A stretch of 64,000 bases of DNA. Origin: Rhodanobacter sp. C05. GTDB lineage: Bacteria > Pseudomonadota > Gammaproteobacteria > Xanthomonadales > Rhodanobacteraceae. The position numbers and the translations under genes were made by a program. The notes under the pieces were generated by a model. The model was given only the letters and a program-made list of their open reading frames with translations, was not told where the DNA came from and did no database searches. How positions within the stretch are numbered: the first letter of the stretch is position 1; each line of letters begins with the position of its first letter. The DNA is taken from NCBI RefSeq assembly GCF_002001165.1, contig NZ_MUNQ01000026.1:62001-126000 (forward strand), given 5' to 3'. Positions 25,242-37,642 of this stretch are shown here, piece after piece.

Positions 25242-25778
25242 TCAGCCTTCGATGCCGGTGGACTCGTCTGATCCTGCCGATTCTGCGGATTCCGCCGGAA
25301 CCGCCTGATCGGCGGCATCTTGCAAGCGGTGCAGCTCGGCCTCGATCCACTCCAGATCCGGAATCATGGCAACGTCATCGCGCACCAATACCTGCGCCCG
25401 CACACCCGGCGGCAACTCGCTGCCGTCGTGGGTGGGGATGATCAATTCGGCGTTCAACGTGGTAAGGCGCGGGAAACCCTGCGTCAACACTGCGATGAAC
25501 GGCAACTTGGGGTTGCCACCAAGCGCTTTCAGCACGGCCACGCGTACGCTCAGCTCGGCATCACCTTCCTCGGTACCAGCCAGTTGAGTAAACGACACCA
25601 GCGGCACACGCCAACCACGCCAGGCGATACGGCCAAGTACCCAGGCCGGCGCACCGGGCAACGGCTCGGGTTTGCTCTGGGTGATCACCTCGGCAATGGT
25701 GGCATTGGGCAGCAGCAGACGCTGGTTGCCGACCGGCACCAGTACGCAGCGGATTTCACGCGGCAGCGGATCACTCAT
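25242..25778 (-). CDS. chpC: CheW-like adaptor of the Chp system (ChpC)
   Basis: A 178-residue CheW-domain protein: REIRCVLVPVGNQRLLLPNATIAEVI opens the fold and VLGRIAWRGWRVPLVSF marks the conserved core. In Pseudomonas, ChpC is the second CheW-like protein at the distal end of the pilGHIJK-chpABC cluster and links additional receptors to ChpA. The C-terminal tail (about residues 155-178) is acidic/Ser-rich and disordered. It overlaps chpB by four bases and is the last gene of the operon. Confidence 0.82.
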   Translation of the reverse strand: MSDPLPREIRCVLVPVGNQRLLLPNATIAEVITQSKPEPLPGAPAWVLGRIAWRGWRVPLVSFTQLAGTEEGDAELSVRVAVLKALGGNPKLPFIAVLTQGFPRLTTLNAELIIPTHDGSELPPGVRAQVLVRDDVAMIPDLEWIEAELHRLQDAADQAVPAESAESAGSDESTGIEG

Positions 25779-27523
25779 GGAAACACCTCGATCAGGTGCG
25801 CCGCCAGCTCATGCGGCGTACCGGAAAAACTGACCAGTCGTTCGGCGAAAATACCGCTGACCATATCGGCAAAATGTTCACCGGACGACGACTCTACCCA
25901 AACCTGGCCGCCGCGATCATGGATCGCCTGCGATCCGGCGACCGCATCGTTGGCACGGCCCGCAAACACAATCGCCAATGCATCACGACCAAACGCATTC
26001 GCCGCCATCGTGAGGCTGGCATCAATCGATGGACCTTGTGCCTGATCCGAAGCGATCGCCTGCAGCTCGATCTTGCCATCGCGACGCAGCACCACCTGCT
26101 GTCCCGCCGGAACCATCAGCACCTCGCCAGCTGCAGCGCGTTCGCCTTGCACAGCAAGGCGTAGCGGCAATGGGCAATGCGCAGCCAATCGTTCCACCAA
26201 CGCGGTGTCGGACTGTTGCGCGCCCATATGCTGGGTATGCAGGAAAGTCAGCCGGCAGTTGGCCGGCAGCGCGGCGAGAAAATCGCAGACGGAATCCACA
26301 CCGCTTGGTGCTGCCCCGAGCAGCACGATCCGGCTCAAGGCACTCCCCAGTTCGTCGAGCAGCATTTCGTGATCATGTACATACTGCTTGGGTGCGATAG
26401 CCTCTTCCATCGACACCAGTTCAAGACTGAACACGGGCTCGACGCCAGCTGCGACCGGTTCGATATCCGGCGCCAGAAAATCCGCCGCGCTCACTTTCTC
26501 GATGCCAAACGCAGCAGCCTCGTTTTTCGCAGGCCCGGCAGGCAGCGTGTCCTCATCCAGCAATGCCCAGTTGTCCGGCGCACGAGCGGACACGGTCACT
26601 GGCGCAGCGTGAACGGGCTCATCCGCCGACGCCGGAATGGTCACAATCGACGGATCAGCCGGCGACTCCAGCTTCAGATCGTCAAATGGCGCGCCCACAA
26701 CCTTCGACAGTTCGGCATGTGCAGTGGCCGCGATGGACGGCGCCTCATGGTGGCTTACGGGTGCATCGAATGCAGCAGGTGCCACACCGAAGTTGCCGTC
26801 ATGCAATGGCGGCAACTCCTCGTCATCGGCGAAGCGCAAGCCGGAACCGGAGGCCTGCTCGTCATCGACCGGCAACTCACCCGAAGCCAGCAAGGCTTCC
26901 AGTTCTGCCGCCAGATTCTCCGATTCGGCACTGGCGATCATCTCGTGCTCGCCATCCAGATCGTCATGCGACAGGAAATCCGGCTCGGACGGCATGGACG
27001 CAAACTCCGGCTCGATATCGTGCCCGGGCGCATCAGCTTTTTCGATGACTGCAGCGGCCGGCGCTTCGGCATCCGTTGCGATGGCCTCGAACGGGGTCTC
27101 GGCCGGAGCATCTGCAACGGATTCGGTCGGCCCGGCCGGCACAGGAGTGTCGATGGCGCGTGATCCCAGCGGGCGCGGCGGATCGATATCGCCTGCAGCC
27201 AGCACCTTGACCGCGAGATGCCGCGCCCAGCGTGCGCGGTCCCACCCACTCAGGCCACGACTTACCTGCGCGTCGTTGAACACCACCCGTGGCTGGTCGC
27301 TGTCGATGAGCTCGTACAGATTGTCGAATACATCATCATCACCATCGTCCAGATTGACCACGACGACATCCGCACCCAATTGCCGCAGCAAATCACGGCT
27401 GAGACTGGAAACGCCTCCCTCATGAACGATCCGCGCGCCATGCTCATGCAGTGCTTCGCGTAACTGACTGCCCAGCTCAGTGTCGTCGAACAACAGCGCA
27501 ACCGCTGGAGTCGTTTCAGTCAT
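25775..27523 (-). CDS. chpB: Chp-system protein-glutamate methylesterase ChpB (CheB-like) with atypical nucleophile region
   Basis: A 582-residue protein: a degenerate receiver-like domain (residues 1-115, ALLFDDTELG and VVVNLDDGDDD), an acidic low-complexity linker (about 130-380), then a CheB methylesterase domain (about 395-582). In chemotaxis, CheB demethylates receptors. Expected catalytic residues are Ser, His and Asp. His is present (HTQHMG) and Asp is present (RANDAVAG), but the nucleophile motif reads GAAPSG (404-408 region) instead of GASTGG, placing Ala405 at the Ser position. It overlaps chpA by eight bases and chpC by four. Confidence 0.82.
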   Translation of the reverse strand: MTETTPAVALLFDDTELGSQLREALHEHGARIVHEGGVSSLSRDLLRQLGADVVVVNLDDGDDDVFDNLYELIDSDQPRVVFNDAQVSRGLSGWDRARWARHLAVKVLAAGDIDPPRPLGSRAIDTPVPAGPTESVADAPAETPFEAIATDAEAPAAAVIEKADAPGHDIEPEFASMPSEPDFLSHDDLDGEHEMIASAESENLAAELEALLASGELPVDDEQASGSGLRFADDEELPPLHDGNFGVAPAAFDAPVSHHEAPSIAATAHAELSKVVGAPFDDLKLESPADPSIVTIPASADEPVHAAPVTVSARAPDNWALLDEDTLPAGPAKNEAAAFGIEKVSAADFLAPDIEPVAAGVEPVFSLELVSMEEAIAPKQYVHDHEMLLDELGSALSRIVLLGAAPSGVDSVCDFLAALPANCRLTFLHTQHMGAQQSDTALVERLAAHCPLPLRLAVQGERAAAGEVLMVPAGQQVVLRRDGKIELQAIASDQAQGPSIDASLTMAANAFGRDALAIVFAGRANDAVAGSQAIHDRGGQVWVESSSGEHFADMVSGIFAERLVSFSGTPHELAAHLIEVFP

Positions 27524-30500
27524 GAATCGGCTCCGCCGCCCGCTGCTCGAGCACTTCACTGATCTGCACCAGCAACTCGGCTTCCTGATACGGCTTGCCC
27601 AGGTAGCGATCCACACCGATGTCGAACGCCCGCTGGCGATGTTTGTCTCCGCTGCGCGAGGTGATCATGATGATCGGCACATTGCGCAGGCGCGGGTCGG
27701 CCTTCATGTGGGTCGCCAGCTCGTAGCCGTCCATCCGCGGCATCTCGATATCCAGCAGCATCAGATCCGGCACACGCTCGTGCAGTTTCTCCAGCGCATC
27801 GACACCGTCCTTGGCCGTACTGACCTCGTATTCGTGGCGTTCCAGCACACGGCTGGTGACCTTGCGCATGGTGATCGAATCATCCACCACCATCACCAGC
27901 GGCTGCACCCGCACCTCTTCGATGATCGGCGCCTGCACTGCACTGAGGCCATCGGCCAGACGCTGCTGACGACGGGTGATGCCATGACGGACCAGCGGCG
28001 CCAGATCCAGAATGATCAGCACCGAGCCGTCACCCATGATCGTCGCACCGAGCAGGCCCGGCACCGAACTGATCTGCGGACCGACCGACTTGACCACGAT
28101 CTCGCGCGAACCGAGCACGGCGTCGATACGGATCGCCGCACGCAGATCGCCGGCGCGGGTCAGCAGCAGCGGCTGCTGTTCGCCCTCGGGCTGCAGCCCT
28201 GGTGGCAGACCCAGCAGTTCAGCCAGATCGTGGATGCCATAAGCCTCGTTGCCGTAGCGGAATGACGGCTCGTCCTCGGTCATCATGACCGCCAGATCTT
28301 CCGGATTGACCCGCGCCACACCCTGCACCGACGTCATCGGAATGGCGAAGGTCGCCTCGCCGATGCGTACCAGGATGGCCTGGGTTACGGCGAGCGTGAA
28401 TGGCAGTCGCAGCACGAAGGTGCTGCCCTTGCCCTCGTCCGAATCGATCGACAGCGAACCGCCAAGCTGCTTGATCTCGTTCGCCACCACGTCCATGCCG
28501 ACGCCGCGACCGGCAAGCTGGGTCACCTTGCTGGCAGTGGAGAAGCCCGGCTGGGTGATCAGCGAGAGCAGCTGGTTGTCGGTCGGCTTGATGTCGGCAC
28601 GCAGCAGCCCACGCTCGATGCCGCGCTTGCGGATCGCGGCGCGATTCAGGCCACGGCCATCATCACTGACTCGAATCACTACCTCGGTAGCCTCACGCGC
28701 CACCTGGATATGCACGGAGCCTTCGGCTGACTTGCCCGCCTTGCGGCGCTCGGTCGGAGTCTCGATGCCATGTGCGATGGCATTGCGCAGCATGTGCTCG
28801 AACGGTGCCTTGATGCGGTCGAGCAGGTTGCGATCCATTTCGCCGTGTGCGCCGTCCACGTACAGCTGGGCGCTCTTGCCTTCTTCCTGGGCAGCCTGAC
28901 GCAGCGTGCGGCGCAGGTTCGGCACCATCGTGTCGAACGGCAGCATGCGTGTGCGCAGCAAGCCTTCCTGCAACTCTGTACTGACGCGGGACTGCTGGAT
29001 CAGCAGGGTCTCGGCCTGCCGGGTCAGCTCGTCCAGCATGCTCTGGATCGACACCAGATCGGATACCGATTCGGCCAGTGCACGCGAATACTGCTGCAGT
29101 TGCGAGAAACGATCGAGCTCGAGCGGATCGAACGTCGCCATGCCCGCTTCGCGATGCTCGCGCTGGAAGCGCGCGATGATCTGCGCTTCGGTCTCGATTT
29201 CCAGCATGCGCAGCTGGCTGCGCAGACGCGCGACAGTCTGTTCGAGCTCGACCAGGTTGAAACGGTAGCCGGCCACCTGCTGTTCGAGGCGCGAACGGTA
29301 AATCGCCACCTCGCCGGCGTGGTTGACCAGGTTGTCGAGCAGATCGGCGCGGACACGGATCTGCTCCTGCGGAGAACGTACTTCCTCATCTTCTTCCGGC
29401 AGCAGCTCGGGTAGTTCCAGCCCTTCCAGCGTGCTCGGCACTACTGGTGCCGGTGTTGCCCGTACCGGTTTCGACACCTGCAGCGGCACGACGGCAGCAG
29501 CCAATACCTCGTCGTCGGCCAGCGTCTGCTCTCCTGCGAGACTCAGCAGCTGATCGATCATGGCTTGCGGGTACGCAGGCGTCTGTCCCTGTGAAACCTG
29601 CTGCGTCAGCGCGTGCAGCTGATCAAAGCTCGCCTCCAGCGCAGCAATCAGCGGGCCGGTCTTTTCCACATCGCGAATCGGCTTCTCGAGCAAGGTCTCG
29701 ATCGCGTGTGAAAGATCACCTACTGAAGACAACCCGGCGATTCGTGCACCGCCCTTCAGCGTATGCAGATCGCGCTGCAGCTCGGCCACATGAGCCAGTT
29801 CGGATGGCTCGGCATGCCAATGTGCCAACACGCCATCGGCATGATCGAGGAGTTCGTGGGCCTCTTCGATGAACACTTCGAGCAGATCGGCATCGATATG
29901 GCCGGAGCCCGCCAGCGCATATGCCGGCTCGTGTGCCGGCATTGCACTTGTTTCCACCGACACTGCATCGGCCGCAGCCTGCTCGGCAGCCAGCTTTTCG
30001 GCAGCAGCTTGTTCTGCGGCGAATTTCTCGGCTTCGGCATGTTCTGCTGCAAGCTTCTCGGCGGCAGCCTGTTCCGCCGCAAGTTTCTCGGCTTCGGCAT
30101 GTTCTGCTGCTGCATGCTCTGCTGCTGCATGCTCTGCTGCTGCATGCTCTGCTGCTGCCTTCTCTGCAGCTGCTTGTTCCGCGGCTGCATGTTCAGCAGC
30201 GAGCCTGTCGGCTTCGGCCTGCTCAGCTGCACGTTTCTCGGCAGCCGCCTGTTCCGCCACCGCCTTCTCTGCAGCTGCATGCTCTGCGGCAGCTTGCTCT
30301 GCTGCTGCCTGCTCCGCAGCCAGCTTCTCGGCCTCTGCCTGTTCCGCGGCCAGTCTTTCAGTCTCGGCCTGACGGGCCGCCTGTTCTGCCTTCTCTGCAA
30401 GTGCCTGCTCGGCAGCGGCGGCCTCGGGTTCGAACGCGCCCAGTGCGGCTACCAGCTCGGCAGCAAATTCGACATGGTGCACATCGTCCAGCGGAGCTCC

Positions 30501-33500
30501 TGCCTGCTGAGTTGCTTCCGTCGGCACTTCGGCGCCTGTCTCATCTGCATGTCCTGCGACGAGCTTGTCCATGCTGGCATCCAGCGATGCGGCCATTGCC
30601 GTTTCGTCGCCTGCTGCATGCGCCGGAGCGGCCGTTTCGGCAGCAGCTTCCTCCTCGTCGGGACGCGGCTCGAACACCACATGCGCCACCTGCGACTCGG
30701 GATAACGATCGCGCATGTCAATCAGCTGTGCGGTCAACGCATCCACGTTGGGCAACTGCGGCTCGGCGACATCGAACTGGCTCATCACGTGGTCGACGAC
30801 CTCGACCGACTGGCCAAGCAGATGCACACCCTCGGCCGGCAACGGCTGATTGGCGGCACGCAGACGCTTGAGCAGTCCCTCCAGCGGCGACAGCAGCTGA
30901 GTGAGCAGCAGGATGTCGACCATCGCGATGGCACCATGCAGTGTATGCACGGCACGCAGCAGCTCTTCCGTGATGGGCAATTCGCTACCGCCGCGCTGAA
31001 TCGCGGCGCGGATGGTCTGCAGGTATTGCGCAACTTCGCTGCGCAGGATCTCCAGCAGCACCGGATCGACCGGTGGCATTGCCGAAATCGCAATGAACGA
31101 TGCCGGCTCGACTGCCTCGTGCTCGGCAGCGGCAGTGTGGGCATCGGTTACGCCGGCTTCCGGGACGGCCTGCGCCGCTACATCAACGCGCGGCACACGC
31201 CGGCGTACCACACGACGAACTGTTTCGGTCGCACCCGATGCGTAATCCTCCACGCGTGCCGGCTGGCCAGCGGCCTGTTGCTCGGCGGCCTGCATGATGG
31301 CGCTGAGTGGCAGCGTCGGCGTACCGTCGCCCTTGAGTGCAGCCAGCAATTGTGGCAACGCATCGATAGCGTGACGAACGACTGCCTGTACACCCTCATT
31401 TGGCTGGATCGTGTTGTCCAGCACCCGATTGAGCATGTCCTCCACTTTCCACGCGAACTCGCCGAGCACGCCGGCACCGACCAGTCGGCCGGAGCCCTTG
31501 AGCGTATGGAACGAGCGGCGGATACCTACGAGCGAAGATTGCTGGGCGGGATCAGCCAGCCAGGTTTGTTCGGCAGCACGCAGGTTGTCGATTTCCTCCT
31601 GCATTTCTTCCAGGAAGATCTCGCGGATATCGTCGTCGATGCCTTCAGCATTCGCATTGAAGCCGGTGTTGGCCGCCAGCGCATCGCGCACGGGCACCTG
31701 CTCGACAATTTCTTCCTCGATTTCGATCCAGTCGTCCTGGCCATCCGACGCATTCGACTCCAGCATCGCGGGCGCAGTCGCTTCAGTCTGCGCCAGCCGC
31801 AGACCGTCCAGATCATGAACAGTGGTAGCTGGTGGAACCGTGTCGCCAATGAACACATGGCCCAGGTCGTCACCGGGCAGCAGGCTGACGGATTCGGAGA
31901 GCTCCGGATGCTCCTCATGCTCGAAGACGTGGCTAACGGGGGCAGCCACAACAGGCGTGGCTACGGTTGCCGTGGACACCGCACGTGCGGCAGGCAGTGG
32001 CCAGTAACCGAGCAAGCCAAGACTGTGCTCGGCCACATCCAGAATATGTTCCAGCCCACCACGATGTTCGCGCGCGGCCTCGAGATAGTACTCGAGTGCT
32101 GCGAGAGCATCGGCGAGATGATCCATCTGCGCCCCGCTGGGTACGCGCCGGTCATCCAGCAGTTCATAGCCGACGAAGCGACCCACGCCTTCCGCCAGTT
32201 CAGCCGGACGTGTTGCCGACAACATGCGCATGGCGCCAGCGACTTCGTCCATCAGGACTGATGCGCCCGCCAGACGATCGTGCTCCCAGCCGGATTCGAC
32301 AAAGGCAACGATCGCGTCCTTCACCTTGCCGGTGTTGCCGATCGCTTCCTGCATGAGGGTCGTGACGACGCCCAGCGCCTCGCTGCGCGGTAGTCCAGGT
32401 GCAACTCCACCTGCGGCCGACTCGTCCTCTGAGCCGAGGCTTTCGATGTGATCGTCCAGTGAAGCCTCGACGTACAACAATGCTCCAGCCACATCGAGCA
32501 AAGTATCTTCATCGGCCGGACGCAGACGGTTCGCGATCTCGTCGAGTACCCGTCGCTGTTCGCCGATCACACGGCGAGGTACCGTCAGCGCCAGCATGCC
32601 CAGCGTATCGCCCACGCGTTCGAGCACTTCACCCTGCACAGCCAGTTGCGCCGGGTCACCATCCTGCTGGCGCAGGAACAGATCCAGCGCTTCCTTGACA
32701 CGCAGCAGATCGTCCTTCAAGGCACGCGATACGGAGTCGAGCAGCGCGCGATTGTGTCCGGACATCGAACCGCGGGCATGCTCCAGCTCGCCGGCATCGG
32801 GCAACAGGCTGTCCAGCGCGTAGGTCGTGCGAAGCAGTTCCATCTGCGGACTGCGTTGCTTGGCCTGGGCCACGATGTAGAGCAGCTTGCAGGCCACCTC
32901 ATCCGCTTCGCCACCGCGCAGGCTGTTTTCACCCTGTTCGATCAGCAGGCGGATGTTGCGGTCAACCTTGCCGACCAGCTGGCGAATTTCGCCCGCCTGA
33001 GCCTTGAGTGCTCCCTGTTCCAGTCCCTCGAGGACACCGGCAGCTATCCACCACAAGCGTCGCCCATGTACATGGAAGCAGCGCGCCGTGATCGCCAGCA
33101 GCGTCTTGCGCATGCCGATCAACTGCTGCGATGCATTCTGTCCGCGGAACCAGGCAAGCAGTTGCTGCTGGAAACGCAGCCGCAGATCCACCAGTTCGCT
33201 GCGATGTGCTTCGGCATATGCCTCGCTCATCGCAGCCGGGGCTTGCTCCGGCAGGAACGCGTCGAGATTCGGATGGAACATCGCCGACTCGGGCAGCGGC
33301 GGCTGCTCGCGGCTGGCGCGCAAGTCATTCAGCAATGGCAGCAGCACCACCGGCACATCACGATGGCCGCTGGACAGGCGTTCGAGATAATCGGGAAGTT
33401 GCATCAAGCCACGCATCAACGCGGCATAGGCATCCTCGCGATGGGCGACGTGATCCCCAAGCAGCGCGATGACGAGCGTTTCCATCTCGGCGGTAACCAT

Positions 33501-33698
33501 CGCCGCGCCATACAGCTCGACCATCCGCAAGGTGCCATGCACCTGATGCAGATGATCCGCACAAGTGCGCATGTAGTCGCGCTTGGCTGGATTGTCAACA
33601 TAGGACTCCAGCGCCTCGCGGGCGATCGACAAGGTATCGTCGAGCTCCGGCTTGACCCACTGCAGTGTGGTGAAATCGATGTGGTCTTGAAGTCTCAT
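27516..33698 (-). CDS. chpA: ChpA hybrid chemosensory histidine kinase for type IV pili (Pil-Chp)
   Basis: A 2060-residue CheA-like kinase, the hub of twitching-motility signalling. Hpt-type domains centre on His54 (VHGTLRM), His731 (HTLKGSG), His918 (HTLHGA) and His1312 (HTLKGGA), with degenerate Hpt-like helices between 54 and 731. A repetitive Ala/Glu linker occupies about 1093-1245. The CheA dimerisation helices start near 1440 (DLLDNLVNHAGEVA), then an HATPase domain (RNAIAHGIE, DDGRGLN), a CheW-like domain and a C-terminal receiver (VVDDSITMRK, LLDIEMPRMDG, KPY). All kinase motifs look intact. GAGAGG precedes the ATG. It lies between pilJ and chpB. Confidence 0.95.
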   Translation of the reverse strand: MRLQDHIDFTTLQWVKPELDDTLSIAREALESYVDNPAKRDYMRTCADHLHQVHGTLRMVELYGAAMVTAEMETLVIALLGDHVAHREDAYAALMRGLMQLPDYLERLSSGHRDVPVVLLPLLNDLRASREQPPLPESAMFHPNLDAFLPEQAPAAMSEAYAEAHRSELVDLRLRFQQQLLAWFRGQNASQQLIGMRKTLLAITARCFHVHGRRLWWIAAGVLEGLEQGALKAQAGEIRQLVGKVDRNIRLLIEQGENSLRGGEADEVACKLLYIVAQAKQRSPQMELLRTTYALDSLLPDAGELEHARGSMSGHNRALLDSVSRALKDDLLRVKEALDLFLRQQDGDPAQLAVQGEVLERVGDTLGMLALTVPRRVIGEQRRVLDEIANRLRPADEDTLLDVAGALLYVEASLDDHIESLGSEDESAAGGVAPGLPRSEALGVVTTLMQEAIGNTGKVKDAIVAFVESGWEHDRLAGASVLMDEVAGAMRMLSATRPAELAEGVGRFVGYELLDDRRVPSGAQMDHLADALAALEYYLEAAREHRGGLEHILDVAEHSLGLLGYWPLPAARAVSTATVATPVVAAPVSHVFEHEEHPELSESVSLLPGDDLGHVFIGDTVPPATTVHDLDGLRLAQTEATAPAMLESNASDGQDDWIEIEEEIVEQVPVRDALAANTGFNANAEGIDDDIREIFLEEMQEEIDNLRAAEQTWLADPAQQSSLVGIRRSFHTLKGSGRLVGAGVLGEFAWKVEDMLNRVLDNTIQPNEGVQAVVRHAIDALPQLLAALKGDGTPTLPLSAIMQAAEQQAAGQPARVEDYASGATETVRRVVRRRVPRVDVAAQAVPEAGVTDAHTAAAEHEAVEPASFIAISAMPPVDPVLLEILRSEVAQYLQTIRAAIQRGGSELPITEELLRAVHTLHGAIAMVDILLLTQLLSPLEGLLKRLRAANQPLPAEGVHLLGQSVEVVDHVMSQFDVAEPQLPNVDALTAQLIDMRDRYPESQVAHVVFEPRPDEEEAAAETAAPAHAAGDETAMAASLDASMDKLVAGHADETGAEVPTEATQQAGAPLDDVHHVEFAAELVAALGAFEPEAAAAEQALAEKAEQAARQAETERLAAEQAEAEKLAAEQAAAEQAAAEHAAAEKAVAEQAAAEKRAAEQAEADRLAAEHAAAEQAAAEKAAAEHAAAEHAAAEHAAAEHAEAEKLAAEQAAAEKLAAEHAEAEKFAAEQAAAEKLAAEQAAADAVSVETSAMPAHEPAYALAGSGHIDADLLEVFIEEAHELLDHADGVLAHWHAEPSELAHVAELQRDLHTLKGGARIAGLSSVGDLSHAIETLLEKPIRDVEKTGPLIAALEASFDQLHALTQQVSQGQTPAYPQAMIDQLLSLAGEQTLADDEVLAAAVVPLQVSKPVRATPAPVVPSTLEGLELPELLPEEDEEVRSPQEQIRVRADLLDNLVNHAGEVAIYRSRLEQQVAGYRFNLVELEQTVARLRSQLRMLEIETEAQIIARFQREHREAGMATFDPLELDRFSQLQQYSRALAESVSDLVSIQSMLDELTRQAETLLIQQSRVSTELQEGLLRTRMLPFDTMVPNLRRTLRQAAQEEGKSAQLYVDGAHGEMDRNLLDRIKAPFEHMLRNAIAHGIETPTERRKAGKSAEGSVHIQVAREATEVVIRVSDDGRGLNRAAIRKRGIERGLLRADIKPTDNQLLSLITQPGFSTASKVTQLAGRGVGMDVVANEIKQLGGSLSIDSDEGKGSTFVLRLPFTLAVTQAILVRIGEATFAIPMTSVQGVARVNPEDLAVMMTEDEPSFRYGNEAYGIHDLAELLGLPPGLQPEGEQQPLLLTRAGDLRAAIRIDAVLGSREIVVKSVGPQISSVPGLLGATIMGDGSVLIILDLAPLVRHGITRRQQRLADGLSAVQAPIIEEVRVQPLVMVVDDSITMRKVTSRVLERHEYEVSTAKDGVDALEKLHERVPDLMLLDIEMPRMDGYELATHMKADPRLRNVPIIMITSRSGDKHRQRAFDIGVDRYLGKPYQEAELLVQISEVLEQRAAEPIHD
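29970..30420 (-). repeat. In-frame 15-bp tandem repeat encoding the ChpA Ala/Glu linker
   Basis: Within chpA, about 150 codons consist of pentapeptides of the form x-Ala-Ala-Glu-(Gln/Lys/His), for example LAAEQ, AAAEK, FAAEQ. At 30100-30165 the 15-base DNA unit (GCATGCTCTGCTGCT on the plus strand) is repeated nearly perfectly, so the array can change length by slippage while keeping frame. The protein product should be a long charged alpha-helix or coiled coil separating the third and fourth Hpt domains. Confidence 0.85.
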
Positions 33699-33772
33699 GC
33701 GCCTCTCTCAACGGTTGCGCAACGCAGGCATCACGCAACCAACGAGACTGCCCCCCGTCATAAATTCCAATG

Positions 33773-35803
33773 TCAACCCGGCAGCTTAAAGTGCGCCACC
33801 GAGCGTCGCAGATCACTCGCCAGCTGCGCCAGCGTACCGATCGAGTCGGCGGTCTGGCTCGCACCTTGCGAGGTTTGCGAAGTAATTTCCTGAATCGCGT
33901 TCATTGAATGCGAAATGTCCGTCGCCGCTGCGGATTGCTGTCGCGCTGCGCTGGAGATGTTCTGAATCAGCGCGGACAGATCGTGCGACACGCGCTCGAT
34001 GTCACCCAGTGCACTACCGGCGTCTTCCGCCTTGCGCGCACCGGCCACCACCTCGGCGGTGGTCTGCTCCATCGAGTTCACCGCTTCGTTGGTATCGGAC
34101 TGAATCGTCTGCACCAGTGTCTCGATTCGCTTGGTCGCGCTGGTCGAGCGTTCGGCCAATCGCTGCACTTCGTCCGCCACCACCGCGAAACCGCGGCCTG
34201 CCTCACCGGCCGAAGCCGCCTGGATCGCCGCGTTCAAGGCGAGGATGTTGGTCTGCTCGGCAATGTCGTTGATCAGTTCCACGATCGAGCCGATTTCCTG
34301 CGAGGATTCACCCAGCCGCTTGATGCGTTTGGAGGTCTCCTGGATCTGGTCACGGATCGAGTCCATCCCCGAGATCGTCTCGCGCACCACTTCGGCGCCG
34401 TGCGAGGCGATCTGCACCGAGCGCTCGGCCACGTCGGCCGACTCGGCGGAGTTCTTCGACACGTCATCCATCGAACTGGCGATCTGGTTGATGGCCGTGG
34501 TCGCCGTGCTGATCTGCTGCGCCTGCTGTTCTGCCGCGTTGGCCAGATGGCGTGCCGTGGTCTGGGTTTCCTGTGCTGACGACGACACCTGCTCCGAGGT
34601 CTCGTTGATGGTGGTCACCAGTGAACGCAGCTCATCGATGGCGTAGTTCACCGAGTCGGCGATCGCGCCGGTGATGTCTTCCGACACCGTGGTCTTCACC
34701 GTCAGGTCGCCTTCGGCGAGCGAGCCCATTTCGTCCAGCAGGCGCATGATCGCCTCCTGGTTACGCTGGTTCAGCTCGGTACTGCTGGCAAACCGGCGGC
34801 GCTGATCGCCCACCAGCGTGATGACCAGCAACAGGGCGAAGGCCACCGCGGCAATCGCGCCGAACAGGCCCCACCACACATTCGGGAACAGCCGCCGCAG
34901 CGGCAGCTTGCCGATCTGCTCGGACAGGTCGTTGGCGCGCAGGAGTACCGTCTGCGAGTCCAGCGAAGCCTGGTTGCCCGCGTGTTTCACGTCGGCGATG
35001 TTGCCTGCAGCAGCGACCAGTTTGGCCACCGGGTCGGCCAGCTTGGTCCAGCCGGCATCCATGTCGGTGAGAATCTTGTGCGCGTTGGCATCACTGATCG
35101 GCTTCACGCCACTGTCGGGGTTGCCGTCAAGCAGACCCTTCAGCACGCTGCCATAGAGCTGCGCATCGCGGGACAGGCCATCGGCCGCCGACTGTGCATT
35201 GTCGCCACCCTGCAACACTTCCTGCACTCGGCGGATGATGCGGTCAGCCGACAGCATCTGGCGGGAAGTGCCCAGCATCTGCTCGGAGCTGCCGTTGCGC
35301 TGCTGCAGGATGTTGACCACCTGCTCCATGCTCGAATTGAGCAACGGCATCTGCTGCGACAGCGTGTCGGCGCGCTGCGCCGAATCGAGCACCACGGCCT
35401 TGTTGGAAAGGATCTTGCCGATATCGCCATCGAGCTGCTGCCACGAGGCGTCAAGCGCACTCACAGCACGGCCAGCGGGGGACGCATTGTTGTCGGCGTA
35501 AGCCTGCATGCCGCTCGTCGGATCGCCCTTGCCCAGTTTCTGCACGGCGGAATCGATGGCGTTGCGGGTGCCCTCAAGCTCCTTGAAGGAGTCGGTATTG
35601 CCGTTTGCCGATTCCAGCGCGAACTTGGCCGTCTGCTGTGACAGCACCTGGATCTGCGTAGTCAGCGCGATGGCCTGGCGATCCTCATCGTTCTTGATGT
35701 TCAGTCGCCAGAAGTCAAACGCCGCAATGCCGATCGCAATCAGCAGCAGGACAATGAGTGCGGTGTAACCTCGTTCCCTGCTGACGCCCCCTGTAGTGCT
35801 CAT
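33773..35803 (-). CDS. pilJ: PilJ, methyl-accepting chemotaxis protein of the Pil-Chp system
   Basis: A 676-residue receptor: first helix about residues 13-32, periplasmic PilJ-type domain about 33-305 with repeated helical modules, second helix about 310-335, HAMP, then a methyl-accepting signalling domain ending near 660. The hairpin tip contains the conserved [32 protein letters not shown] stretch that contacts CheA and CheW proteins. In Pseudomonas PilJ senses pilus/surface contact. ATG at 35803 is preferred over GTG at 35809 because GAGG lies eight bases before it. No pilK gene lies between it and chpA; only 74 bases separate them. Confidence 0.95.
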
Positions 35804-35932
35804 GTTCACCTCATCCGTCTAACTGTACGTTGCCGGCTCCGCATCATCGCGCGGCTGCTGGCCAGGGATTTGTTGTTTCAACTCCGGCCGCAATCGGCAC
35901 CGGCCCTTCCATAATCTGTAACCGCGCTCAGC

Positions 35933-36472
35933 TCACGCTGCCGCCTGTCGGAAATCAGGTGCACGCACCAGCCGGCTCATGCTGAAAATCGCCAGTTGCT
36001 GCTCACCCACCCGGTTTTCGACGAAACGGGCCAGCCGCGGATCATCCTCGCGCTCGACCTCGCGTCGCTGCTGCTCATCCACCGTGCGCTGGCCAAACAC
36101 TTCGTCGACCAGCAGCGCCACATTGCCGCTGCCCTGACGCACGATCAGGAGACGGGTGCGATCGGAATGCAGTGTGCGCTCGCCAAACAGGAACCGGCCG
36201 AAGTCGATCACCGGCACCAGATTGCCGCGCACATTGGCTACCCCGAGCAGCCAGGACTGGGTACCCGGCACCGGCGTGAGCGTGGGCACAGCCAGCAATT
36301 CATTGATTTCGTCGATGCCGCTGACCAGCATGCGCGAACCGACGCGAAAACCGATGCCGCGCCACAATCCGGGCGCTTCCAGCTTGTCGCTCGTGTCGGA
36401 GGCATGCGCCAACGATAACCGCTCGTAGCGCGCCAGGATTTCGAACGGGGTGCGATTGACAGTCTGGTTCAT
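35933..36472 (-). CDS. pilI: PilI, CheW-like coupling protein
   Basis: A 179-residue CheW-domain protein that links PilJ to ChpA. The conserved core LLGVANVRGNLVPVIDFGRFLFGE (around residues 78-102) and LLVDEVFGQR match PilI. The start at 36472 overlaps the pilH stop by four bases, so translation is coupled. Its position, pilH-pilI-pilJ, is the same as in Pseudomonas. Confidence 0.93.
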   Translation of the reverse strand: MNQTVNRTPFEILARYERLSLAHASDTSDKLEAPGLWRGIGFRVGSRMLVSGIDEINELLAVPTLTPVPGTQSWLLGVANVRGNLVPVIDFGRFLFGERTLHSDRTRLLIVRQGSGNVALLVDEVFGQRTVDEQQRREVEREDDPRLARFVENRVGEQQLAIFSMSRLVRAPDFRQAAA

Positions 36473-36840
36473 GTTGCACTCGACAGCAGATCGTTGATAC
36501 AGGCCAGCAGTTCCTTCTCGTTCACCGGCTTGGTGATGAACGCACGGGCGCCCTGACGCAAACCCCACACCCGATCGGTTTCCATCGACTTGGTGGTAAT
36601 CATCACGATCGGTACCGCCGAAGTGACCGGATCACGGGTCAGCGTGCGGGTCGCCTGGAAGCCATTCATGCCGGGCATGATCACGTCCATGATGATCAGG
36701 TGCGGTGGCTCGGCGCGTGCGCGCTCGATGCCTTCCTCGGCTGTTCCGACAGCGACGACCTGATGGCCGGCACGCTCAAGCAGCGTGGTGAACACGCGCA
36801 CGTCGGTCGGCGAATCGTCGATGATGAGAATAGTGGCCAC
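36469..36840 (-). CDS. pilH: PilH, single-domain response regulator
   Basis: A 123-residue CheY-like protein. Receiver residues are in place: acidic pair DD at residues 8-9, phosphoacceptor Asp52 (LIIMDVIMPGMNG), Thr in MITTKS and Lys in ITKPVN. PilH is a ChpA phosphorylation target that counters PilG and tunes pilus retraction. It starts with GTG at 36840 preceded by GAGGGGGA. The pilG gene ends 22 bases upstream. Confidence 0.93.
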   Translation of the reverse strand: MATILIIDDSPTDVRVFTTLLERAGHQVVAVGTAEEGIERARAEPPHLIIMDVIMPGMNGFQATRTLTRDPVTSAVPIVMITTKSMETDRVWGLRQGARAFITKPVNEKELLACINDLLSSAT

Positions 36841-36862: not shown

Positions 36863-37273
36863 TCAGCGGTTGGGTACCGTGCTGACATGGCGATGAATGG
36901 CACCAAGCAGCTCGTCTCGCGTGAACGGCTTGGTCAGATACTGTTCGGCACCCACGATGCGCCCGCGAGCCTTGTCGAACAGGCCATCTTTCGAGCTCAG
37001 CATGATCACCGGCGTGGCACGGAAAAGCGGATTGTTCTTGATCAGCGCGCAGGTCTGATAACCATCCAGCCGCGGCATCATGATGTCGACAAAGATGATC
37101 GCCGGCTTCTGATCGGAGATCTTGGCAAGCGCCTCGAATCCGTCGACCGCGGTCAACACCTCGCAGCCCTCTTTTTTAAGCAGGGTTTCCGCCGTGCGGC
37201 GGATGGTCTTCGAGTCATCGATCACCATGACCTTGAGACCAGCCAAGTCATTAGCACTCACGTTCAAATTCAC
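36863..37273 (-). CDS. pilG: PilG, single-domain response regulator
   Basis: A 136-residue CheY-like protein. Receiver signatures: VIDDSKTIRRTAETLLKK, phosphoacceptor Asp63 (FVDIMMPRLDG), MLSSKDG and LTKPF. PilG, phosphorylated by ChpA, promotes pilus extension and cAMP production in Pseudomonas. The start is unusual: no ATG exists. I give GTG at 37273; a TTG at 37267 is eight bases past a GGGGGAG ribosome binding site and is an equally good candidate. First gene of the operon. Confidence 0.9.
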   Translation of the reverse strand: MNLNVSANDLAGLKVMVIDDSKTIRRTAETLLKKEGCEVLTAVDGFEALAKISDQKPAIIFVDIMMPRLDGYQTCALIKNNPLFRATPVIMLSSKDGLFDKARGRIVGAEQYLTKPFTRDELLGAIHRHVSTVPNR

Positions 37274-37642
37274 TACTCCCCCTGCGGCCCGGCCCGAGCT
37301 CAGGATAGACACCAAGACATGCAACAGCCATGCCGTACGGTGCGCATGTAAAAAATTTCGAAACGAATCATCGGGAACCCGCTCTGCGGCAGAGTCCCCA
37401 AGGCTTTGCTGTTTACTGCCTGCCTGCCGAGACTGTCAAGCAATTGTTCGGATTCCCGCCCACGTGACCCATAGTGGCACCATCTGGCCGTCTGCGACAG
37501 CCATCGAATCATGGACAATCCTGTCGCCATGGGGATATCCCTGACGGGCTTCCCACTTACTATTAGGTACCAGGCGGGGACCAGCCGGACTACGCCTGCC
37601 TGTCAATCGACCTCATTCAGGTCGCCATATTGGAGATTCACC
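37274..37642. other. 369-base divergent intergenic region between pilG and gshB
   Basis: No gene is seen here. It must hold the promoters of the pilG-chpC operon (minus strand) and of gshB (plus strand). The only good match to a sigma-70 element is the TTGACA at 37434-37439 on the minus strand, described separately. An A-rich stretch (GTAAAAAATTT) lies around 37347-37357. Short open frames here lack coding character. Confidence 0.6.
37410..37439 (-). promoter_or_regulatory. Candidate promoter for the pilG-chpC operon
   Basis: On the minus strand a perfect TTGACA (37439-37434) is followed after 18 bases by TAAACA (37415-37410), a weak -10. It would give a leader of about 130 bases before pilG. 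This is a pattern match only. Confidence 0.35.

Follow-up and report, generated by a model that had tools for sequence, protein, structure and literature searches.

The window examined here, a 64,000-nucleotide stretch of the genome of the soil-type bacterium Rhodanobacter sp. C05 (positions 62,001 to 126,000 of contig NZ_MUNQ01000026.1, assembly GCF_002001165.1), contains on its minus strand, from 37324 to 25242, the genes pilG-pilH-pilI-pilJ-chpA-chpB-chpC of a Pil-Chp system, the chemosensory system of type IV pili that governs motility on surfaces, in this order. We propose, with fairly good confidence, that ChpB of this locus, by annotation a methylesterase, is a pseudo-methylesterase retained after loss of the methyltransferase PilK, that the receptor PilJ no longer passes through a methylation cycle, and that ChpB now serves the Pil-Chp complex in a non-catalytic way. 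The proposal is based on the loss of the catalytic nucleophile throughout the clade, the absence of PilK and the purifying selection on ChpB, all as read from sequence comparison, together with a CheB fold that is retained in the structural model.

The protein has the architecture of a ChpB, being encoded between chpA and chpC and consisting of an N-terminal domain, a long linker and a C-terminal CheB domain, the last of which (residues 400-577) matches PF01339 (6.6e-27, 94.8 bits against a cut-off of 24) and in the model keeps the CheB fold. Plus-strand positions 26300-26317, reversed, read GGG GCA GCA CCA AGC GGT, that is G403-A404-A405-P406-S407-G408. With phmmer this stretch aligns without gaps to the GASTGG or GSSTGG of the solved CheBs 6ymz, 1a2o, 1chd, and 3sft, which places Ala405 on the nucleophilic serine, as the initial annotation of this DNA had read it. 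Columns were scored on the 120 listed of the 660 ChpB homologues found, to which all homologue counts below refer; the named relatives nearest to the ChpB of the window are those of Rhodanobacter and Dyella. Alanine occupies the serine column in 117 of them, serine in two and threonine in one, and from this conservation it follows that Ala405 is no sequencing error. The catalytic His and Asp regions had also been described as kept, and indeed His432 and Asp526 are each found in 120/120. ChpB thus lacks the serine expected of a CheB methylesterase while having the His and the Asp, and loss of catalysis, judged from the sequence, is well supported; the protein would be inactive as an esterase. 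The alternative raised at the outset was that the nucleophile has shifted to Ser407 and that ChpB is still an active esterase. This serine does stand two residues past Ala405, with His and Asp kept, but column 407 is variable (Ser in 81, Asp in 32, other residues in seven), and the residue, number 19 of the model, is predicted to lie within a helix (18-29) beyond the strand-helix elbow that holds Ala405. It is at such an elbow that the CheB nucleophile sits. Because of the variable column and the position in the helix, to which the ungapped alignment can be added, Ser407 is rejected as the nucleophile and a working esterase of this kind is extremely improbable.

The absence of pilK between pilJ and chpA, noticed in the initial annotation, holds for more than this one gap. 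The two genes are separated by 74 bases here (33699-33772), compared with about 740-1085 bases in 16 relatives in which pilK is present. A PilK profile was built from 16 loci in which pilJ and chpA flank a CheR-type gene, the one in L061 being confirmed as CheR by Pfam (4.4e-50). Among 200 genomes of the order (Xanthomonadales), 40 score at least 387 bits with this profile and all other listed matches score 177 bits or less; the present assembly (4.25 Mb, 30 contigs) yielded no PilK in a genome-wide search, its best match (8.6e-33) falling in the low-score class. Given so clear a gap in scores, a PilK elsewhere in the genome is rejected. A cheR elsewhere, which the initial annotation had named along with pilK as grounds for refutation, does literally exist, in the form of two CheR-domain genes, accompanied by two further CheB-domain genes, all on one contig (C2). 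The first set consists of a CheB-CheR-PAS-HWE kinase fusion of 1228 aa (L120, 5761-9444) and the second, read by eye, of a cluster of hybrid kinase, CheR, CheB, and receiver-GGDEF genes (L121, 2628-8746). Both C2 CheB domains carry Ser, His, and Asp, and PilJ might therefore still be cycled by the enzymes of this contig. However, the C2 domains are part of a kinase fusion in one case and in the other neighbour hybrid-kinase and receiver-GGDEF genes, and two genomes of the same genus with the same ChpB type (G148 and G192) gave no CheR match and only one CheB match, so that we consider this explanation very unlikely. PilJ is the sole methyl-accepting chemotaxis protein (MCP) of the assembly, with a single PF00015 match genome-wide, and CheW domains are confined to PilI, ChpA, and ChpC. 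CheD (PF03975) was considered as a substitute receptor deamidase and rejected, since it was found in none of eight genomes, this one included, but in 5 of 14 controls. The suggestion that the methylation/demethylation arm is lost or reworked is supported by the genome-wide absence of PilK, the loss of the ChpB nucleophile across the clade and the lack of CheR in G148 and G192, and PilJ would accordingly be unmethylated.

The states of PilK and ChpB were compared across loci that were hand-picked rather than random: 120 ChpA loci in the order (80 spanning its genera, then the remaining 23 PilK-positive genomes and 17 more) and, outside the order, 20 of the 39 PilK-positive genomes together with 40 that are PilK-negative and match ChpA strongly. 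Within the order, all 29 readable ChpBs of the 40 PilK-positive loci have an intact Ser/His/Asp triad. The 80 PilK-negative loci comprise 60 with a broken ChpB, 12 without chpB and seven with an intact triad, and the window is one further broken case beyond the 60. Twelve loci (11 PilK-positive and one PilK-negative) were not scored, as their contigs end before the place of chpB, and for seven badly aligned rows (L048, L073, L078, L081, L083, L097, and L102) the residues were taken from another alignment. Three of the 60 broken ChpBs (L059, L065, and L103) retain the serine and have lost His and/or Asp.

Two groups of the order, f1 and f2, are read as Rhodanobacteraceae and Xanthomonadaceae, the latter presumably the Lysobacteraceae of NCBI. 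In crown Rhodanobacteraceae (31 rows including the window) the serine is replaced in all 31; 30 rows retain His and 31 Asp. In most sampled Xanthomonadaceae all three catalytic residues are lost. A further 80 titled loci, nearly all from Xanthomonas, Stenotrophomonas or Pseudoxanthomonas and with no Xylella record listed, have Gly in the serine column in 79 cases (one is not aligned) and no His in any of the 78 rows with a letter in the His column; a PilK match occurs in 0 of these 80 stretches, 79 of which contain pilJ. One of them (L214, JAHREJ010000001.1) is titled Bacillus subtilis SK7B5 and has a Stenotrophomonas-like Pil-Chp locus, and is probably a mislabelled or mixed assembly. Outside the order, the triad is intact in 18 of 20 PilK-positive loci; another has a frame that stops short of the serine (L254, where chpA is split too) and one (L259, genome G606) has PilK and no chpB beside chpA. 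Of the 40 PilK-negative loci outside, 37 have no chpB between chpA and chpC and one (L291, G597) has an intact ChpB beside a PilK fragment, L268 and L272 not being scored, so that loss of chpB is the common fate after loss of PilK. Among the loci sampled, two families of the order and two single lineages (L065 and L103) are the ones that retain a dead ChpB; it has been kept separately in crown Rhodanobacteraceae and Xanthomonadaceae, while chpB is otherwise usually lost with PilK.

The His and Asp that remain in Rhodanobacteraceae might have been kept for another reaction or another substrate, and their near-complete conservation in the 31 crown rows, every one of which has the serine replaced, speaks for this. 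We nevertheless regard it as unlikely, as His is lost in 78 of 78 lettered rows of the parallel Xanthomonadaceae set and the listed homologues contain no conserved alternative nucleophile.

On a tree of 114 ChpA C-termini, from which seven loci without enough ChpA were left out, the combination of PilK absence and broken ChpB needs at least four changes on well-supported branches, and PilK status six; long branches meet in several places on this tree and its deep joins are unsure. Since PilK-positive members with an intact ChpB occur in both families (L070 and L071 in Xanthomonadaceae, L061 and L066 in Rhodanobacteraceae), the two losses look separate.

ChpB is nonetheless a kept protein and not a wreck. 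When the ChpB of the window is compared with ten from Rhodanobacteraceae, the ratio of nonsynonymous to synonymous change (dN/dS) is 0.08-0.24 for the CheB domain, 0.06-0.16 for the N-terminal domain and 0.16-0.43 for the linker, the CheB domain lying below the linker in 10 of 10 pairs. The domain gave 0.08-0.47 in six Xanthomonadaceae pairs, and five pairs of intact ChpBs gave 0.04-0.44; L128/L132 was skipped for want of a readable ChpB, and the intact pairs L118/L145 and L122/L123 were too saturated for a ratio. Among the homologues the consensus fraction averages 0.89 in the N-terminal domain, 0.65 in the linker and 0.87 in the CheB domain, with a near-invariant C-terminal stretch, and chpB is a single open frame in 20 of 20 loci (L040-L059). 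These data bear directly on neutral decay, by which ChpB would be a remnant on its way to being lost. Such decay would agree with the loss of all three catalytic residues in most sampled Xanthomonadaceae, with the usual disappearance of chpB elsewhere in the class and with one Xylella strain reported without the gene (PMC8176220; here and below, papers are cited for individual passages). The low dN/dS, the intact frames and the near-invariant stretch argue against it, as does the lowered twitching described for a Xylella chpB deletion (PMC9956873), and we judge decay to be quite unlikely. Because ChpB is kept under purifying selection, 'reworked' fits the methylation arm better than 'lost'.

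We now put forward a hypothetical mechanism for a non-catalytic ChpB. PilK would have been lost first, and ChpB of this lineage would then have lost its catalytic serine to become a pseudo-methylesterase. PilJ would thereby be out of the methylation cycle, its Gln/Glu adaptation sites remaining as encoded. ChpB would dock, most likely on PilJ (or on ChpA or PilG), via its kept CheB fold and the N-terminal receiver-like domain, and the docked protein would tune kinase output or polar assembly through binding, its remaining function, so that its role is probably one of receptor binding or scaffolding. A more specific version, which we hold only tentatively, is that ChpB is a binding-only adaptation protein; it would read or lock the Gln/Glu sites that stand unmodified in PilJ and set the gain of the kinase by occupancy, giving adaptation or pole bias without covalent modification of the receptor. 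It would have arisen at least twice by two routes, with Ser lost and His and Asp kept in Rhodanobacteraceae, and with Ser, His, and mostly Asp lost and new invariant stretches gained in Xanthomonadaceae.

Four known systems come closest. In Pseudomonas aeruginosa, which has the same Pil-Chp system and whose ChpB is compared here by description and not by sequence, ChpB and PilK are both needed for directed twitching according to the passages cited (PMC10896506, PMC12632253); there ChpB acts with PilK on PilJ, whereas the present system lacks PilK and has Ala in place of the nucleophile. The same Ser-to-Ala change was engineered in Salmonella CheB (S164A), where catalysis is reported to be abolished while the receptor body is bound with the same constant, within error (PMC8609364); in the Rhodanobacter ChpB the change is natural and fixed in the clade. 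The Acinetobacter Pil-Chp system, described as having neither pilK nor chpB (PMC9596432, PMC8088505), is like the present one in having no methylation arm but differs in that chpB and chpC are gone, while the Rhodanobacter locus still encodes ChpB, as a dead enzyme. A further published case is the pilGHIJ-chpABC locus of Lysobacter capsici, in which pilK is likewise missing and chpB present; its ChpB too is compared by description, and the passages cited carry no remark on the active site (PMC4960238). A pilG-pilH-pilI-pilJ-pilK operon is given for P. aeruginosa and Xanthomonas campestris pv. campestris in a passage of PMC7698356, which disagrees with the absence of PilK matches from the 80 titled stretches, among which pathovar campestris was not identified. 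The absence of pilK (L. capsici) and of both pilK and chpB (Acinetobacter) is therefore already in print, but a search of the open-access literature, as far as its passages go, found no report of a catalytically broken ChpB in Rhodanobacteraceae or Xanthomonadaceae, and the retained pseudo-ChpB is apparently unreported there.

Several observations weigh against the proposal that ChpB is retained as a non-catalytic protein. Two of the 120 homologues, the Rhodanobacter-like ChpBs P0071 and P0072, carry GASVDG, with Ser in the nucleophile column, and retain His and Asp; these serines are possible reversions or relics, and activity may have persisted or been regained. Seven PilK-negative loci have an intact triad (L062, L063, L064, L118, L119, L145, and L146), and loss of PilK therefore does not force the decay of ChpB; for three of them (L063 in G101, L064 in G170, and L119 in G029) no CheR match was found in the genome, and the ChpB, a methylesterase without a methyltransferase found, may be a deamidase or be in transition. 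Only five independent pairs enter the phylogenetic pair test; three to five of them go in the expected direction and none in the opposite one, and the sign-test p of 0.0625-0.25 falls short of significance. Synonymous change is high in most of the pairs used for dN/dS. In another setting, the affinity of Salmonella CheB S164A is given as about 2.5-fold lower (PMC8609364). The Xylella fastidiosa ChpB, deletion of which reduced twitching and left natural competence unchanged in the account cited (PMC9956873), lies outside the sequences compared here, and the chpB loss in strain Salento-1 is described as putative (PMC8176220). Finally, the Gln-Glu pair at residues 413/414 of PilJ, the probable counterpart of the published Q412/E413 motif, occurs within the order in 40 of 40 PilK-positive loci, 60 of 61 with a broken ChpB, all seven that are PilK-negative and intact, and 9 of 12 without chpB, and outside the order in 10 of 20 PilK-positive loci (six more have Gln-Gln) and 7 of 37 without chpB. 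Its retention with a broken ChpB and lower frequency without chpB fit a docking role, but in the PilK-positive and broken-ChpB groups of the order the site is conserved no better than the remainder of the domain. For this reason, and with lineage as a confounder, we do not count these figures as a test of docking or of erosion of the PilJ methylation sites.

The features of the locus are collected in Table 1. Its assignment to the Pil-Chp type follows from the order pilG-pilH-pilI-pilJ-chpA together with chpC, and the PilK methyltransferase of the Pseudomonas form is not present; the two receiver genes are named pilG and pilH by assumption, from gene order. The term receiver-like for the N-terminal domain of ChpB comes chiefly from the strand and helix order predicted for it, because outside the CheB domain the full-length model gives Foldseek receiver matches that are weak (E of 4e-3 and worse); a Pfam search of ChpB gave no receiver match in this domain. 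The same domain contains a W-x(3-5)-R-W-x-R-H motif (residues 94-102, window 27218-27244), which within the order occurs in 59 of 60 broken, 19 of 29 PilK-positive and 7 of 7 PilK-negative intact ChpBs, and outside the order in 0 of 20. Within chpA, 29968-30371 (minus strand) is a long imperfect Ala/Glu-rich repeat with periods of 15, 30, 45, 60, and 150 bases; the ChpAs of L066 and L103 have other repeats, of a charged kind.

Table 1. Pil-Chp genes of the window and sites within chpB (window coordinates).
Feature	Position	Strand	Basis
pilG, receiver protein	36863..37324	-	Open reading frame (ORF); gene order as in relatives
pilH, receiver protein	36469..36840	-	ORF; gene order as in relatives
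pilI, CheW-like	35933..36568	-	ORF; CheW match
pilJ, MCP	33773..35809	-	Pfam MCPsignal and PilJ
pilJ-chpA gap, 74 bases	33699..33772	no strand	ORF ends; site of pilK in PilK-positive relatives
chpA, CheA-type kinase with Hpt, CheW, and receiver domains	27516..33698	-	Pfam
chpB, 582 aa, putative pseudo-methylesterase	25775..27523	-	ORF; Pfam CheB_methylest
N-terminal receiver-like domain of ChpB, residues 1-110	27194..27523	-	Alternating strands and helices in model
CheB-like domain of ChpB, residues 400-577	25793..26326	-	Pfam CheB_methylest
Ala405 codon GCA, position of CheB nucleophile (Ser)	26309..26311	-	Sequence and alignment
Ser407 codon AGC, suggested alternative nucleophile	26303..26305	-	Sequence
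His432, catalytic His column, QH motif, kept	26228..26230	-	Alignment
Asp526, catalytic Asp column, ND motif, kept	25946..25948	-	Alignment
chpC, CheW-like	25242..25778	-	Pfam CheW, 1.3e-15

The annotation of ChpB as a methylesterase in Rhodanobacter, Dyella, Xanthomonas, Stenotrophomonas, and Pseudoxanthomonas is very probably wrong. The comparison suggests an ordered loss of receptor methylation, in which PilK goes first and the chemistry of ChpB later, and in which the body of ChpB can outlive its chemistry. It also raises the question of how a surface-sensing system with one receptor adapts without methylation. In P. aeruginosa the enzyme would mask a non-catalytic role of ChpB; in species that have no such enzyme, the role could be tested directly.
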